A stretch of 22,307 nt of DNA. Origin: a virus. The position numbers were made by a program, and so were the translations under genes. The notes under the pieces are model-generated. The model made no database searches and was not told the origin of the DNA. It was given only the letters and a program-made list of their open reading frames with translations. Positions 2,548 to 14,835 of the stretch are shown in pieces. The stretch's first letter is position 1. The number at the start of each line of letters is the position of its first letter. The stretch lies in IMG/VR virus record IMGVR_UViG_3300034068_001187, positions 1-22,307 of that record; one strand, given 5' to 3'.

Positions 2548-2717
2548 TTTGAAAGTGTGATAGTTTGCGGAATTGCCACCCATCACGCCAAGAGACAAGC
2601 ACAGCACAAAAACAGCGTCAAGCTCTTTTCTTATAATTTTATGCTTGCAAACTGTTGCTCGGTTCTTTTTTTATCAAAGCGCACTCAGGCAATCCCGCTT
2701 TGAGCGCACTAATAAAA
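2548..2717. promoter_or_regulatory. Divergent intergenic region, promoters expected
   Basis: The genes at 2547 (minus) and 2718 (plus) diverge from here, so it should hold a promoter for each. An AT-rich block with TATAAT (2632-2637 on plus; TATAAG-like on minus) lies in the middle. I could not find a well-spaced -35 element for either direction, so the exact promoters are unassigned. Confidence 0.35.
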
Positions 2718-3404
2718 ATGCAACGCTTGGAAGTACACCTCACACGAATCAGCATGAATGCAAAGACTGGCCCCATCCCAGTCTCGACCTCAACGGCTAC
2801 CAATTGCCCTCCCTCCTGTCCGTTCAATAAAACAAGCGAAGGGGGTTGTTACGCTGAAACTGGCCCGCTCGCTTTGCATTGGCGCAAAGTCACCCAAGGG
2901 TTGCGCGGTCTTGTGTGGTCTGCTTTCTGCGATGAAATCAGCCGTTTGCCCAAGGGTCAATTATGGCGGCACAATCAGGCGGGTGACTTGGCGGGTGATG
3001 GCGAATATATTGACGCCCACAAACTGGCCGAATTAACGCAAGCCAACAAGGGCCGCCGAGGATTCACTTATACGCACAAGCACACAACGGACGAAAACGT
3101 GGAGGCGATACGCTGCGCCAACGCACACGGCTTCACGGTTAATTTATCCGCCAACAACCTAGCGCACGCCGATAAGCTGGCCGATTTTAAAGCTGGCCCC
3201 GTGGTTTGCGTGCTACCTTCAAACCAAACCGAGAACACCACAACCCCAGCAGGGCGCAAGGTGGTTATTTGTCCTGCTACCTTCCGCGAGCATACCTCCT
3301 GTGCCACTTGCGGCTTGTGCCAAAAGCAACGCGAGGCCATCGTGGGCTTTCCCGCTCACGGTATGAGCAAAGCCAAGGCCAACGCAGTAGCCGCAGCCGC
3401 TTAA
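2718..3404 (+). CDS. Cysteine-containing plasmid/phage protein (DUF7227-like)
   Basis: The product (228 aa) has a conserved-looking N-terminus: NAKTGPIPVSTST, then CPPSCPF and GCYAETGPLALHW, a pattern I associate with a family of uncharacterised phage and plasmid proteins that includes DUF7227. A second cysteine set lies near the C-terminus (CATCGLCQKQR), and VVICPATF supplies another. Spaced cysteines suggest metal binding. The middle holds a strand-loop pattern (GFTYTHK, GFTVNLSANN, PVVCVLPSN), like a small alpha/beta barrel. The start could be ATG 2718 or ATG 2754; a TTG-initiated extension to 2655 is unlikely. The C-terminus ends in an alanine run. It is a single-gene transcript with its own terminator. 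The family call is moderate and the function unknown. Confidence 0.65.
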   Translation: MQRLEVHLTRISMNAKTGPIPVSTSTATNCPPSCPFNKTSEGGCYAETGPLALHWRKVTQGLRGLVWSAFCDEISRLPKGQLWRHNQAGDLAGDGEYIDAHKLAELTQANKGRRGFTYTHKHTTDENVEAIRCANAHGFTVNLSANNLAHADKLADFKAGPVVCVLPSNQTENTTTPAGRKVVICPATFREHTSCATCGLCQKQREAIVGFPAHGMSKAKANAVAAAA

Positions 3405-3573: not shown

Positions 3574-3612
3574 AACTAGGAACCAATCTTCTTCCTAGTG
3601 GATTCCTAGTTG
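3573..3612. repeat. CTAGG inverted repeats with two alternative pairings
   Basis: CAACTAGGAA (3573-3582) can pair over 10 bases with TTCCTAGTTG (3603-3612) or over 8 bases with TTCCTAGT (3592-3599). The two pairings exclude each other. The set may be a double operator or a switchable RNA hairpin upstream of the gene at 3760. Confidence 0.55.
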
Positions 3613-4529: not shown

Positions 4530-4738
4530 CTAAAGCAAACACATCCGACAAATTTGATCGTTATGAATTAAACCAATATGGTTTTATATGGAATAACGCA
4601 ATCGTCACTCGCGTAGCCAGCGGAGTTCGTTGGGGTTGCTTACTGCACGTAGAAACACCAAAGGAATTGTTTGCAATTCGGATTACCCCAAGCGGTTTGA
4701 TTCGATTTGGTAAATCTCGCAAAAAAACAAAAATATGA
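4526..4738 (+). CDS. Hypothetical basic protein (70 aa)
   Basis: I chose the ATG at 4526 because AGGAGGGG ends five bases before it and it forms an ATGA overlap with the previous gene; an upstream in-frame ATG (4493) has no such site. The product has several predicted strands (YGFIWNNAIVTRV, WGCLLHVET, LFAIRITPSGLIRFG) and a lysine-rich end (KSRKKTKI), as in a small beta-barrel or nucleic-acid-binding protein. The family is not recognised. Its stop overlaps the start at 4735. Confidence 0.6.
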   Translation: MTKANTSDKFDRYELNQYGFIWNNAIVTRVASGVRWGCLLHVETPKELFAIRITPSGLIRFGKSRKKTKI

Positions 4739-5280
4739 ATAAAGAAATCGAAAACTACCTACAAAAACACAACGCTTGCCGCGAAGGCGCGGCTTATGCT
4801 CGAACCCAAAAATCCCTTGCTGAAGTTTGGGACAACTGTCCTAAGTTGGAATGGCTATTTTGGATGCTTGCAAAGCAACCCAACAAGCCAGAAAAGGAGC
4901 TTCGTCTATTCGCCGTCTGGTGCGCTCGCCAAGTCCAGCATCTAATGAAAGACAAACGTAGCCTTGACGCGCTCGACGTAGCTGAACGCTTTGCTTTAGG
5001 AAAAGCCAGCGTAGAGGAGTTGCGTGCTGCGTGGGATGCTGCGCGGGGTGCTGCGCGGGGTGCTGCGGATGCTGCGGATGCTGCGCGGGGTGCTGCGCTG
5101 GGTGCTGCGGATGCTGCGTGGTATGCTGCGTGGGGTTCTGCGGATGCTGCGCGGGGTTCTGCGGATGCTGCGTGGTATGCTGCGTGGGCTGCGGGTGCTG
5201 CGGGGGCTGCTGCGCTGGGTGCTGCGCGGGATGCCCAATTAAAACAATTCAAGAAAATGATTGAAAACCCATTCAACTAA
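4735..5280 (+). CDS. Imm-5-like protein with long alanine-rich repeat tail
   Basis: Residues 1-95 resemble the Imm-5-like domain of putative immunity proteins common in phages: a W-containing block (EVWDNCPKLEWLFWMLA), then RLFAVWCARQVQHLM and the ALDVAERFALGKASVEEL helix. From about residue 97 to 167 the protein is a tandem repeat built on AA-D-AA-RG units, predicted to be one long alanine-rich helix. The end is KKMIENPFN. Repeated alanine helices after this domain are usual in the family, but the copy number varies. Immunity function is a label by similarity and is not proven for phage members. The start overlaps the preceding stop (ATGA). Opposite-strand and shifted frames through the repeat are artefacts of its periodic codons. 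Confidence 0.75.
   Translation: MNKEIENYLQKHNACREGAAYARTQKSLAEVWDNCPKLEWLFWMLAKQPNKPEKELRLFAVWCARQVQHLMKDKRSLDALDVAERFALGKASVEELRAAWDAARGAARGAADAADAARGAALGAADAAWYAAWGSADAARGSADAAWYAAWAAGAAGAAALGAARDAQLKQFKKMIENPFN
5024..5234 (+). repeat. Tandem 9- and 12-base repeat inside the Imm-5-like gene
   Basis: Units of 9 bases (GATGCTGCG, encoding DAA) alternate with units of 12 bases such as CGGGGTGCTGCG (RGAA) or TGGTATGCTGCG (WYAA). Unit sizes are multiples of three, so gain or loss of units keeps the frame. Near-identical neighbouring units point to recent expansion by slippage or unequal recombination. Confidence 0.85.
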
Positions 5281-10685: not shown

Positions 10686-10895
10686 TTAAAGTTCGTGGGG
10701 AGTGCCATGTCGAGCGTTATCGAGTCTTTCCATCTCGTCTATCTCGGCATCCGTGTAAGCTACGTCAGGTTCGCCAGAGTAGAATTCGGCAAACACGGCA
10801 TCTTGTTCTTCCTTGGACATTGCTTGTGACAAAAAAGCGGATGCGAAAACATAATCCGCTGCGTTGTAAGGGATTTTTTTATTCGGGTTACTCAT
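10686..10895 (-). CDS. Hypothetical acidic protein (69 aa), first gene of the minus-strand unit
   Basis: No family is recognised. The product is acidic and mostly helical (NAADYVFASAFLSQAMSKEEQDA, then YTDAEIDEMERLDNAR). No membrane segment or signal peptide. It is the first gene leftward of the divergent region at 10896-10997, so its promoter should lie there. The start ATG at 10895 has no clear SD. It is 11 bases before the next gene. Confidence 0.6.
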   Translation of the reverse strand: MSNPNKKIPYNAADYVFASAFLSQAMSKEEQDAVFAEFYSGEPDVAYTDAEIDEMERLDNARHGTPHEL

Positions 10896-10997
10896 GACAT
10901 TTCAGAGCTAAAACTACTCGTTATTCAAAAGCAACATTAATTTTTTAGTAAAAAAAGTTTGACACAGGTGATCGAATAATTCTTGGTCCGTTTGGTT
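10896..10997. promoter_or_regulatory. Divergent control region between the two main early units
   Basis: The minus-strand unit starts at 10895 and the plus-strand replication unit at 10998, so promoters for both must lie here or upstream. The region is AT-rich. A TTGACA (10959-10964) fits a -35 box for the plus strand, but no -10 with 16-18 base spacing follows; AATAATTC lies too close (12 bases). No matching pair is clear for the minus strand. Confidence 0.45.
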
Positions 10998-11408
10998 ATG
11001 AAAAAACTAGCGATTAAGTTCCGCGAAGCACAAATCTTCGCCCACGCCGCCCACAACCTTGTTCAAGGAAGCTCGTTCTTCTCTGACCATGAGTTCTTGG
11101 GTGAGGCTTACGAGGCATACACGAAAGCGTATGACGACACCATCGAGCGCATGATTGGTCTAGGTAAGGATGTAAATCCGCTCGCCATTACCGCAGAGGC
11201 GGCTAATGATGCTCTGGATACTTACAAGCTGGCCAATGCCGATTCTTACGACATTTTCTATGCTCTGCTTGGCTTGGAAAAGAGCATTTGCGAAATCGTC
11301 AGGGATACGATTGAGGAGGGTGTGACGCATGGCACTAGCAACCTTCTTGAAGGGTTTTCTGATCAGTCTGAAATGCGCCAGTACAAGATCAACCAACGCA
11401 TCCTATGA
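10998..11408 (+). CDS. Dps/ferritin-like four-helix protein
   Basis: The protein (136 aa from the ATG at 10998) aligns without gaps to the Dps core as I remember it from E. coli: H19, H31, D46 and E50 fall exactly where the ferroxidase residues H51, H63, D78 and E82 lie, with the G24/F27 and R51/G56 positions also kept. The position of D67 is a glycine (G35) next to E36. The C-terminal TSNLLEGFSDQSEMRQYKINQ matches the last Dps helix. Dps proteins bind or protect DNA and oxidise iron; a reduced or altered iron site is possible here. A TTG start (10983) would add five residues; neither start has an SD. It is the first gene of the replication unit and overlaps the next gene (ATGA). Confidence 0.75.
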   Translation: MKKLAIKFREAQIFAHAAHNLVQGSSFFSDHEFLGEAYEAYTKAYDDTIERMIGLGKDVNPLAITAEAANDALDTYKLANADSYDIFYALLGLEKSICEIVRDTIEEGVTHGTSNLLEGFSDQSEMRQYKINQRIL

Positions 11409-11575
11409 AAAGCAAACCCAAATTGGGTCGCCCCCGTATGGGTGACAAAACTCGCGTAGTTCTTAGCGCATCAGTCCATCCTGATACTTTAAGGAAGCTC
11501 ACTGTTATGGCAAATAAACTCCCTGTAGGCCAACGCCGCTTGGGAATCCTGTTAGATAAAATGGCTGGTAAATAA
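11405..11575 (+). CDS. Ribbon-helix-helix-like regulator (56 aa)
   Basis: A short gene between the Dps-like and OB-fold-like genes. MKSKPKLGRPRMGDKTRVVL begins with the basic GRPRxGD segment common before RHH domains in small phage and plasmid proteins. A strand (RVVLSASV), helix (HPDTLRKLTVMANKL) and second helix (RRLGILLDKMAGK) follow, as in the MetJ/Arc fold. RHH dimers bind operators through the strand. It starts in an ATGA overlap with the upstream gene, which supports it. It could autoregulate the replication unit, but no operator is assigned. Confidence 0.75.
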   Translation: MKSKPKLGRPRMGDKTRVVLSASVHPDTLRKLTVMANKLPVGQRRLGILLDKMAGK

Positions 11576-11580
11576 TTTTT

Positions 11581-12168
11581 ATGTCCAAAACAACCACACT
11601 GTCAGAGATCATTAACACTCCTACATCCGAGAATTCTTGGGTCGATGGGTCTTTCAAAGCCGCTGTGACGCAAACGCGCCCACCTAGCGGTAAAATGCCG
11701 GGGAAAGCCCTGCTTGTCGATTGTGACAACGGTGCCATCACGATTGATGCTTCGTTCTTTGGTCGTGACCCAAGCTATCTGGAGGGTAAGATCGTTTCCT
11801 TCTCTGGTGCTGGCATGAAGAAGGGCGATTACAAGGGTAAGGCTCAAGTTGCCATTGGTCAAAAGGCTCGCGTCGAGGTGTTCCAAGACAGCTCTGATGG
11901 CGAAGCTGGCAAGCACATGCCCATCGCTCGTCCTCCGGTTGCAGCAAGCGCAGCAGCGGTCATTAAACCCGATTTTAACGAAGAATTGACCAAGATTGGG
12001 TTCCTGTGGCTCCATAGCCTTAATCAGGCCCTAATCGCCAAGGAAACGGCAAATCTGGTCTATGGCTACGAACTGTCTAAGGAAGAATTCCAAAGCTGCA
12101 TCTCCTGCATCTTTATTGAAGCTAACAAGAAGAACCTCGGTGCTCACGTAACTCCAGTCGGGAAGTAA
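11581..12168 (+). CDS. OB-fold-like, putative single-stranded DNA-binding protein
   Basis: The protein (195 aa) has a strand-rich N-terminal region: SWVDGSFKAAVTQTR, GKALLVDCDNGAITIDASFF, LEGKIVSFSGAGMKKGDYKG and KAQVAIGQKARVEVF, arranged like an OB barrel. A linker of prolines and alanines (about residues 115-127) leads into a helical C-terminal domain (ELTKIGFLWLHSLNQALI). Its position directly before the nuclease and primase-helicase genes fits a replication or recombination ssDNA-binding role. The acidic C-terminal tip of bacterial SSB is absent. The function is inferred from fold pattern and context. No SD is seen. Confidence 0.55.
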   Translation: MSKTTTLSEIINTPTSENSWVDGSFKAAVTQTRPPSGKMPGKALLVDCDNGAITIDASFFGRDPSYLEGKIVSFSGAGMKKGDYKGKAQVAIGQKARVEVFQDSSDGEAGKHMPIARPPVAASAAAVIKPDFNEELTKIGFLWLHSLNQALIAKETANLVYGYELSKEEFQSCISCIFIEANKKNLGAHVTPVGK

Positions 12169-12172
12169 AACA

Positions 12173-12991
12173 ATGTCCTTTTTCCAACAATCCAGCCATT
12201 GGTATCAGCTTGGTTCTGATGGCAACCTCACTCCTCAACACGATTACACCCTTCGGGATGCTCGTAAGCACAAGGCATTCCCTTCGATTACGACTATTCT
12301 CAAAGAGCGGGCCAATCCCATGTTAGACATGTGGAAGATGAATCAGCTTTTTGATGCGGTAGTAAACAACCCCAAGAGCGTAAACGAGACAGAAGAGCAG
12401 TATAAGGACCGCATAGGCGAGATCGCGGGTAAGAAAGGTAAGGATGCGGCGGATTTTGGAACAAGGCTTCATGATGCTCTGGACCAATACCCACAACTGC
12501 CATTGGAGCATGACTTGCGTCCATTTGTAGAAAAGTTTGGTCCTGAGTATGATAAGCGAATCAAGACCCGTCTGGCCAGTGAAATCATGCTGTACGACCC
12601 TTACACGGGCGTAGCTGGTCGGACGGACTTGGTGGCTGATACCTACGAATATGGTGTTGCCATCATTGATTACAAAACAAGCAAGTTTAAGAAGGGTAAG
12701 GCCAGCTTTTGGGACTCCTACAGGGTTCAATTAGCTTTTTATGCTCACTGCTATCAGGTAAAAATGAATTTACCAGCACCACCAACGATCATAAACGTCG
12801 GCATCAATAGTCTTGAACCTGATTTGCCGCAATGGAAGGTGTACACCTTAGAAGAGCAAGAACAGGCTTACCGTGAATATCTCGCTATTGCATTCCTGTG
12901 GTTTAGCACCAAGGATTATTGGCCTAAGGGTGATTTTACGCGCCCGTCGCAACAAGTGATCAAGGGAAACGATAATTTGATAACAGCTTAA
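12173..12991 (+). CDS. PD-(D/E)XK (RecB/Cas4-like) nuclease
   Basis: Catalytic motifs are visible in order: GTRLHDALD with H100, E137, the GVAGRTDLVAD motif with D152, IIDYKTSK with D166 and K168, and YRVQLAFYA with Q186 and Y190, which make up the PD-(D/E)XK active site. This is the PDDEXK_1/RecB family type. Members degrade or process DNA ends, 5'-3' in many phage versions, and pair with ssDNA-binding proteins. Its 272-aa length is usual. No four-cysteine iron-sulfur set is seen, so it is closer to RecB-type phage exonucleases than to typical Cas4. It lies 4 bases after the OB-fold-like gene and 14 before the primase-helicase. Confidence 0.85.
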   Translation: MSFFQQSSHWYQLGSDGNLTPQHDYTLRDARKHKAFPSITTILKERANPMLDMWKMNQLFDAVVNNPKSVNETEEQYKDRIGEIAGKKGKDAADFGTRLHDALDQYPQLPLEHDLRPFVEKFGPEYDKRIKTRLASEIMLYDPYTGVAGRTDLVADTYEYGVAIIDYKTSKFKKGKASFWDSYRVQLAFYAHCYQVKMNLPAPPTIINVGINSLEPDLPQWKVYTLEEQEQAYREYLAIAFLWFSTKDYWPKGDFTRPSQQVIKGNDNLITA

Positions 12992-13005: not shown

Positions 13006-14835
13006 GTGGACACAGCGGAATTGAACAATGCGCTCAAAGGGCGCATGGATGAAATGGTAGCAATGCTATTTCCAAATGCTAAGGTTCGCGGCAATATCGC
13101 GCACCTTGGTTCCATTAACGGTGAAGCTGGAGACAGCTTCCACATTTACGTTAGCGGGACTAGGGTTGGCTGCTTTATTGACCGAGCCAATGAATCAGAC
13201 AAGGGCGGAACACCGCTCTACCTTTGGTCCAAAGCCAAGAACATCACGTTCTTCCAAGCCGTTAAAGAGGCTAAGGAATGGCTTGGGGTCAAAGATGAGT
13301 ATGCATCCGTTAAAAAGTACAAGCCGAAGACCTATCAAGCTCCTGAGGTCAAGGGTAAGGACATTCAGTTGGTTACAACCAACACCAAGGCTGAGGATTA
13401 TCTCATAGGAGAAAGAAGGCTGAACCGTGAGGTGGTTACAATAAACCGGATTGCTGATGCTCATCAAGGTGAGGTCATTGTCTTCCCGTACTTCGACAAC
13501 TGTAAGGACAAAGCGGTTCATTTGAAGTTCTTGGGCATAGACCGTGACGAGAACGGCAAGAAGAAGATGTGGTCCTCAGATGGCACCAAACGCTGTTTGT
13601 TCAGCAAATGCACGGTGTCGGACGATGAACGGCACCTTGTTATTACCGAGGGCGAGATCGACGCCATGAGCTATCAATCGGCGGGCATATCCGCAGTCAG
13701 CGTCCCTAACGGGGTGTCTGACCAAGAGTGGATTGAACTCGATTGGGAATGGCTAGAGCGGTTTGAGAAGATATACATATCAACCGATATGGATGGAGCG
13801 GGTCGTGAAGCGGCTGAGAAGCTGGCCAAACGCCTTGGCTTGCATCGAACCTACGTCGTAACCTTACCGCATAAAGACGCCAATGACTGCCTCAAAGCTG
13901 GATTCACCCAAGAAGACTTCCTTAAAGCCCTTAACGCCTCCAAGCAGATCGACCTTGAGGAAATCAAGTGCGCGAATGCGTTCACTGATGGCGTATGGGA
14001 CCTTTACGACGCGAAGAATGCCTCCCAAGGGTACAGCACGCCTTGGGATGATTTACCGTTACGCATTAGACCGGGCGAGTTTACTGTACTATCGGGCTAC
14101 TCTGGCCATGGTAAAACTCAACTCCTTAACCACTTAGTCATTCATTTGATTAGCAATGGTGCGCGAGTTTTTGACGCATCCTTGGAGATTAAGCCCTCCA
14201 AGACGCTCCAAATGATGACCAAGAGCGCATTGGCCAAGAAGCAGCCGGACAACAAGGAAGAGTTGATCAAGTGCATTGATTGGCTTAGTGGTAGCCTGTG
14301 GTTTTATGACCACGTTGGCGTAGCTAGTCGTGAGCGTATCCTTGATGCTATGAGCTATGCTCGTAAGCGGTTTGGGGTGGAAATTTTCATCATTGATTCC
14401 TTGTTCAAGTGCGGCATCGCTGGTGAGGACTTCACGGGTCAACGCACCTTTATGGACCAACTAACGTCGTTCTGCAATGATACGGGTGCTCATGTCATTC
14501 TGGTGGCTCATAGCCGCAAGAGCGAGAATGAGGACCGTGTACCCACCAAGACCGACATTAGCGGCAGTCAGGACATTAACAATGCCGCATTCAATGTTAT
14601 CGTGGTGTGGCGCAATAAGCTCAAGCAACGTAAATGGGATGAAGCCAAGCAGCGTGGCGATGTGATGAAGCAGACCGAGATTGAAGGCTGGTATGATGGT
14701 CGCATCCGTATCGACAAGCAACGCTTTGGTGATGGCGAGGACAAGGACGTTCCGTTGTTCTTTGACCGTACCTCATGGCAGTTCTGGACTAAGCAATACG
14801 TCCGACACACCTACTTCGATGCCAAAGGAGTGTAA
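13006..14835 (+). CDS. Primase-helicase, Twinkle/T7 gp4-like (TOPRIM + RecA-fold helicase)
   Basis: The 609-aa protein combines a primase-like half and a DnaB-family helicase. TOPRIM motifs are VITEGEIDAMS (E215) and STDMDGAG (D261, D263). The helicase has Walker A GYSGHGKT (364-371), Walker B FIIDS (D464), a sensor VAHSRK and the DISGSQDINNAA motif. It unwinds DNA at the fork as a hexamer and may prime lagging-strand synthesis. The N-terminal 100 residues lack the paired CxxC cysteines of the zinc-binding primase domain, so priming is uncertain. The start is GTG with AAAGGA five bases upstream. It is the central gene of the unit, and its end overlaps the SWIM gene. Confidence 0.92.
   Translation: MDTAELNNALKGRMDEMVAMLFPNAKVRGNIAHLGSINGEAGDSFHIYVSGTRVGCFIDRANESDKGGTPLYLWSKAKNITFFQAVKEAKEWLGVKDEYASVKKYKPKTYQAPEVKGKDIQLVTTNTKAEDYLIGERRLNREVVTINRIADAHQGEVIVFPYFDNCKDKAVHLKFLGIDRDENGKKKMWSSDGTKRCLFSKCTVSDDERHLVITEGEIDAMSYQSAGISAVSVPNGVSDQEWIELDWEWLERFEKIYISTDMDGAGREAAEKLAKRLGLHRTYVVTLPHKDANDCLKAGFTQEDFLKALNASKQIDLEEIKCANAFTDGVWDLYDAKNASQGYSTPWDDLPLRIRPGEFTVLSGYSGHGKTQLLNHLVIHLISNGARVFDASLEIKPSKTLQMMTKSALAKKQPDNKEELIKCIDWLSGSLWFYDHVGVASRERILDAMSYARKRFGVEIFIIDSLFKCGIAGEDFTGQRTFMDQLTSFCNDTGAHVILVAHSRKSENEDRVPTKTDISGSQDINNAAFNVIVVWRNKLKQRKWDEAKQRGDVMKQTEIEGWYDGRIRIDKQRFGDGEDKDVPLFFDRTSWQFWTKQYVRHTYFDAKGV

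Follow-up and report, generated by a model that had tools for sequence, protein, structure and literature searches.

A likely Dps-type miniferritin of a phage lineage with its own iron-site signature, encoded at the head of a replication unit in an uncultivated phage

The window analyzed here, i.e., the whole stretch of DNA, is a 22,307-base record of an uncultivated phage in IMG/VR. On its (+) strand, a frame encoding a 136-aa protein runs from an ATG start at position 10998 to a TGA stop at 11406–11408, and we annotate this gene (10998–11408) as a likely Dps-like miniferritin. It is preceded by an intergenic stretch (10896–10997) that extends from a leftward unit, whose nearest ORF (10686–10895) lies on the (−) strand, to the rightward unit headed by the miniferritin gene; a promoter search of this stretch returned no match above chance. 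The genes that follow, all on the (+) strand, encode a 56-aa basic protein with no Pfam or PHROG match (11405–11575; its start overlaps the miniferritin stop by 4 bp, ATGA), an OB-fold protein that is probably a single-strand DNA-binding protein (11581–12168; AlphaFold2 [AF2] pLDDT of 77, with Foldseek matches to OB domains and ssDNA-binding proteins), a PD-(D/E)XK nuclease (12173–12991; PF12705 and the exonuclease phrog_298) and a Toprim primase/DnaB-like helicase (13006–14835; phrog_239 at 8.5e-100, Toprim_2 and DnaB_C). Comparison with near relatives indicated purifying selection on the miniferritin gene (dN of 0.013–0.043, dS of 0.34–0.41), and the PADLOC search for defence systems gave no match to it. 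Elsewhere, the window contains a gene for a DUF7227 protein (2655–3404; match at 2.2e-90), a family of unknown function, as well as dense GCTGCG-type repeats (4992–5255) within ORF 4735–5280, which translate into an Ala-rich stretch of AARGAA/DAA repeats. Between 7109 and 7835 lie three tRNA genes (Gln, Gly and Thr), and a 79-base stretch at the tRNA-Thr gene is the sole near match of the window to isolated phages (Synechococcus phage S-CBS4).

Sequence searches placed the 136-aa protein in the ferritin superfamily, with 28.3 bits against Pfam Ferritin (PF00210; cut-off, 24.5), a match to PHROG 3636 at 3.7e-10 and, in a single-sequence search, a match to Helicobacter NAP at 1e-4. A profile built from 36 relatives matched solved Dps proteins, specifically D. 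radiodurans Dps2 (E-value of 7e-13) and MrgA (1.4e-11), while phrog_3636 was matched by all 36 aligned members (best, 1e-13) and PF00210 by 29 of them. Because the Pfam, PHROG and profile matches all support it, the homology is independent of the ligand-spacing pattern described below. Counting against a miniferritin, the protein reached only 25.1 of the 114 bits required by the NCBIfam Dps equivalog NF006975.

The AF2 monomer model, built on the 36-member alignment (pLDDT of 96.7, pTM of 0.90), consists of helices at residues 2–21, 27–54, 61–75, 83–106 and 111–135. The short helix at 61–75, which separates long helices two and three, is the equivalent of the Dps BC helix; AF2, Foldseek and VIA all describe a four-helix bundle with this short BC-loop helix and no fifth C-terminal helix. 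The best 50 PDB matches listed by Foldseek are all Dps-type (top TM of about 0.84), and VIA aligned 131–133 residues to MrgA and other Dps proteins with Z-scores of 18–19, among which MrgA (18.9) ties with the mini-bacterioferritin 9qq5 (19.0). The original prediction had called this a Dps/ferritin-like protein, and both the significant homology and the predicted Dps bundle, as opposed to some non-ferritin fold, bear this out. When the fold was searched against predicted viral proteins (BFVD), Lactobacillus phage Semele ranked 17th (E-value of 7e-3). The same database holds four proteins of 333–763 aa (A0A6J7WPK9, A0A6J7XDU5, A0A6J7WIS1 and A0A6J5LAB8), annotated as prohead protease or ParB/sulfiredoxin, that align with the Dps fold across ~140 columns, which suggests that they are fusions with a Dps domain.

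The putative iron ligands occupy the positions known from Dps. Residues H31, G35, D46 and E50 lie 12, 16, 27 and 31 residues past H19, equal to the intervals between H51 and H63, D67, D78 and E82 in E. coli Dps, and the spacing of H19, H31, D46 and E50 is therefore as exact as had been claimed. The first ligand histidine, H19 (H51 in E. coli), is encoded within HAAHN (codons H16 to N20; 11043–11057, (+) strand) and precedes N20, a position held by Trp in Dps proteins. The second, H31 (H63), begins HEFLGE (codons H31 to E36; 11088–11105, (+) strand), which also includes G35 at the D67 position and the adjoining E36, both as originally described. Codons D46 to E50 (11133–11147, (+) strand) specify the predicted ligands for the site of the partner subunit (D78 and E82). 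The pattern H-x11-H-x14-D-x3-E has a single occurrence in a six-frame translation of the window and arose anywhere in the protein in 0.06% of 200,000 shuffles of its 136 residues.

To place these residues in a family, we considered the 54 loci obtained by a pattern scan of IMG/VR together with the window, two loci found by primase search (L013 and L015) and a contig of a Verrucomicrobiales MAG (L024), which make up 41 distinct sequences. R9, Q12, D46 and E50 are invariant (41/41), as are H19, H31 and Y38, whereas G35 is found in 40/41 (Glu in L015); the counts for H19, H31, G35 and Y38 lean high, since the patterns that found most relatives contain H16/H19 or H31/G35/Y38, and none of them contains D46 or E50. 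Nevertheless, H19 is present in 27/27 sequences found through the helix-B pattern alone, and H31, G35 and Y38 are present in 3/3 found through the helix-A pattern alone; G35 also occurs in L013, L024, L005 and L006, which were found by other routes. All 41 sequences thus retain, at fixed spacing, each of the four ligands (His, His, Asp and Glu) for which perfect conservation in Dps proteins has been described (PMC4192664), with neither histidine lost in any relative. Residue 20 is Asn in 36/41 and His in 5/41, and residue 36 is acidic in 43/43 aligned sequences, two isolated-phage proteins among them. Further conserved positions include I53 (38/41), E94 on helix C (38/41) and E125 on helix D (37/41). 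Among 29 Verrucomicrobiales Dps proteins used as bacterial controls, D46 and E50 are likewise invariant (29/29), but residue 20 is Trp in 29/29 and residue 35 is always Glu, Asp or Gln. Two loci are unusual: L070 (5899–6717) encodes a member with a C-terminal extension of ~110 residues, and a 6-kb contig (L056) carries two copies of the family gene, at 2019–2420 on the (+) strand and at 3576 on the (−) strand, with the same identity to the query, a pair that may be an assembly palindrome.

The Trp beside the first ligand histidine is well conserved in Dps, although not universal, and its replacement, along with the absence of a carboxylate at position 67, distinguishes the phage site from the canonical one. 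In canonical Dps, the acid at 67 contributes to site B via a water molecule (PMC6675082); as it is missing here, we did not file the phage protein in the subset with a canonical ferroxidase center. We do not take this as speaking against Dps, however, because NpDps4, an active Dps of solved structure, has Asn at 67 with an acidic neighbor that is not a ligand and still oxidizes Fe2+ with O2 (PMC6675082). The residues of the phage site predict that site A is intact and site B weakened. With neither the acid at 67 nor the Trp, catalysis may be slow, may use another metal or may be lost, with the ligands serving assembly. Two substitute ligands were considered and set aside: E36 is a possible replacement, but the equivalent acidic neighbor does not act as a ligand in NpDps4, and K130 apparently lines up with NpDps4 His164, a third-subunit ligand, but is Gln or Leu in 8/41 sequences.

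In a tree with the 29 Verrucomicrobiales Dps proteins, a single branch (support of 96/69; 96% of bootstrap trees) sets all rows of the phage family apart from the bacterial proteins compared; because only this one bacterial order was sampled, a closer bacterial group may exist elsewhere. The signature of the lineage is the glycine at position 67 together with the Asn or His that replaces Trp beside the first ligand histidine, so the D67-to-Gly change pointed out in the original prediction is real but is a family trait and not a local decay. Recent capture from a host was also considered: among 190 Verrucomicrobiales genomes, only the 3.3-kb MAG contig L024 scores high (171 bits), the next hit being an ordinary Dps at 49 bits, and L024 may itself be viral. 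Searching 50,697 GenBank phage records by tblastn, with four members as queries, gave weak matches only (best E-value of 1e-3), namely to Listeria phage records (no annotation), cyanophage S-EIVl and Caulobacter phages. The lineage occurs in many other uncultivated phages but is nearly absent from these GenBank records. Considering the homology, fold, ligands and tree together, we find it reasonably likely that this gene encodes a Dps-type miniferritin of a phage lineage.

The position of the gene at the head of the replication unit, part of the original prediction, holds in the window, its close relatives and the lineages of L013 and L015 but is not a trait of the family. Five relatives (L010, L011, L012, L016 and L017) have the 56-aa ORF, OB-fold protein, nuclease and primase, with no miniferritin detected in the stretch examined, and none of the ORFs read at the miniferritin place in L010, L011 and L012 is a miniferritin. 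Other members lie between the terminase and portal genes (L034 and L068 in the same arrangement; L042 by similarity), close upstream of the major head protein gene (L070) or in tail regions (L054, L069 and L071). In L049, the gene is followed by a PD-(D/E)XK nuclease and an AAA ATPase, and it adjoins a DnaB-like helicase in L040 and another helicase in L041. A survey of related phages, as the original prediction had proposed, therefore yields no neighbor common to all lineages, and the idea of a fixed partner gene was rejected; the miniferritin behaves as an independent accessory gene that is dispensable at the replication-unit place in relatives. Concerning the OB-fold protein of this unit, the relatives in L011, L012, L013 and L015 end in acidic tips (EDENPF, EEDPF, PEDPY and DAGSPF) like the C-terminal tip of SSB, while the protein of the window lineage (11581–12168) ends in HVTPVGK and has no such tip.

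The company of replication genes raises the question of whether the cage binds and physically shields new phage DNA or displaces host Dps, as the original prediction had suggested. PHROG 3636 carries the label 'DNA binding protein', and the gene accompanies replication genes in the window, L013 and L015, precedes the nuclease in L049 and sits beside the helicase in L040; the packaging, capsid and tail locations of other members argue against such a role. A basic, flexible N- or C-terminal tail is one common mode of DNA binding by Dps. In the window protein, which has a pI of 4.8 and a net charge of −9, only the start Met precedes helix A and a single residue follows helix D. Across 56 sequences, 0–4 residues precede helix A in 55 and 1–7 follow helix D in 53, with a median pI of 5.16 and a median net charge of −6. 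Given this acidity and the lack of tails in nearly all members, iron/oxygen chemistry is the more likely function; we keep DNA binding as a weaker reading and consider it unlikely. The loss of the 67 carboxylate and the Trp would instead fit a degenerate miniferritin retained for a structural or interaction role, e.g., as part of the virion or as a poisoning subunit in the Dps cages of the host. The members beside portal and terminase genes (L034, L042 and L068) or near the major head protein gene (L070), as well as the fold matches to proteins called prohead protease, are in line with this idea, but four core ligands invariant in 41 diverse sequences are hard to explain without metal binding, and we judge such a role improbable. 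It is highly unlikely that the protein is instead a mini-bacterioferritin or an enzyme of the ferritin type, with a di-iron site inside each subunit, despite 9qq5 being the top VIA match and E94 and E125 being conserved, since the ExxH motifs of bacterioferritin are missing (E50-R-M-I53 and E125-M-R-Q128), both conserved glutamates have a Glu counterpart in a Dps protein (E125 in MrgA, E94 in NpDps4), H19/H31/D46/E50 match Dps, and the BC helix is present.

Compared with bacterial Dps proteins (E. coli Dps, B. subtilis MrgA, H. pylori NAP and D. radiodurans Dps2), the phage protein has the same fold with a BC helix and the same spacing of the two histidines on helices A and B and of the Asp and Glu on helix B; it differs in G35 for Asp/Glu 67, Asn/His for Trp, the lack of tails and an identity of roughly 15–22%. 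The closest known systems include the His-type cyanobacterial Dps proteins NpDps4 and TeDpsA. NpDps4 shares with the phage family a residue at 67 that is not a ligand and has an acidic neighbor, a His replacing Trp after the first ligand histidine and an E-x-R-x-Y-like stretch on helix D, but it has His78 where the phage protein has the canonical Asp, D46, and His164 where the phage protein appears to have Lys130. Dps-like genes have been published in Lactobacillus plantarum phages, near replication and repair genes (PMC6669764), and in Gratiaviridae, Flandersviridae and other gut phages (PMC8008677), with a role in oxidative-stress tolerance proposed (PMC6669764, PMC8008677). These are likewise Dps-like genes in phages but in different ones. 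The DNA-binding label of PHROG 3636 finds no support in our results for this lineage.

We propose that the miniferritin probably oxidizes and stores iron during infection, based on its fold and ligands. Twelve subunits would form a hollow cage, with site A at each two-fold interface, where H19 of one subunit and D46 and E50 of its partner would bind iron with high affinity, and site B formed by H31 and the bridging E50, which would be weaker without the usual water-mediated carboxylate. The cage would take up Fe2+, oxidize it with O2 and/or H2O2 and retain the iron as a mineral; the effect may be less Fenton damage to DNA and/or iron held during infection, an accessory role tied to no single partner gene. 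In the window phage, the miniferritin and replication genes probably share a transcript, so that the miniferritin would be made at the same time as the replication proteins. More tentatively, this may be a phage-specific miniferritin class with a rebuilt ferroxidase center (intact site A, carboxylate-less site B and no Trp switch), an independent tool of many kinds of phages against iron-driven or host-made oxidative damage, with a reaction preference unlike that of host Dps; we regard this extended proposal as possible but doubtful.

Phage Dps proteins are already known, and our literature searches on their mechanisms turned up no biochemical work; the present analysis adds a separate lineage marked by particular residues around the iron site. 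That these changes run through a coherent phage lineage suggests that phages have long kept such genes as tools of their own, as opposed to having copied them recently from host Dps. The signature narrows the residues worth testing to a few, and the lineage is relevant to the question of whether phages handle iron and peroxide within the cells they infect.
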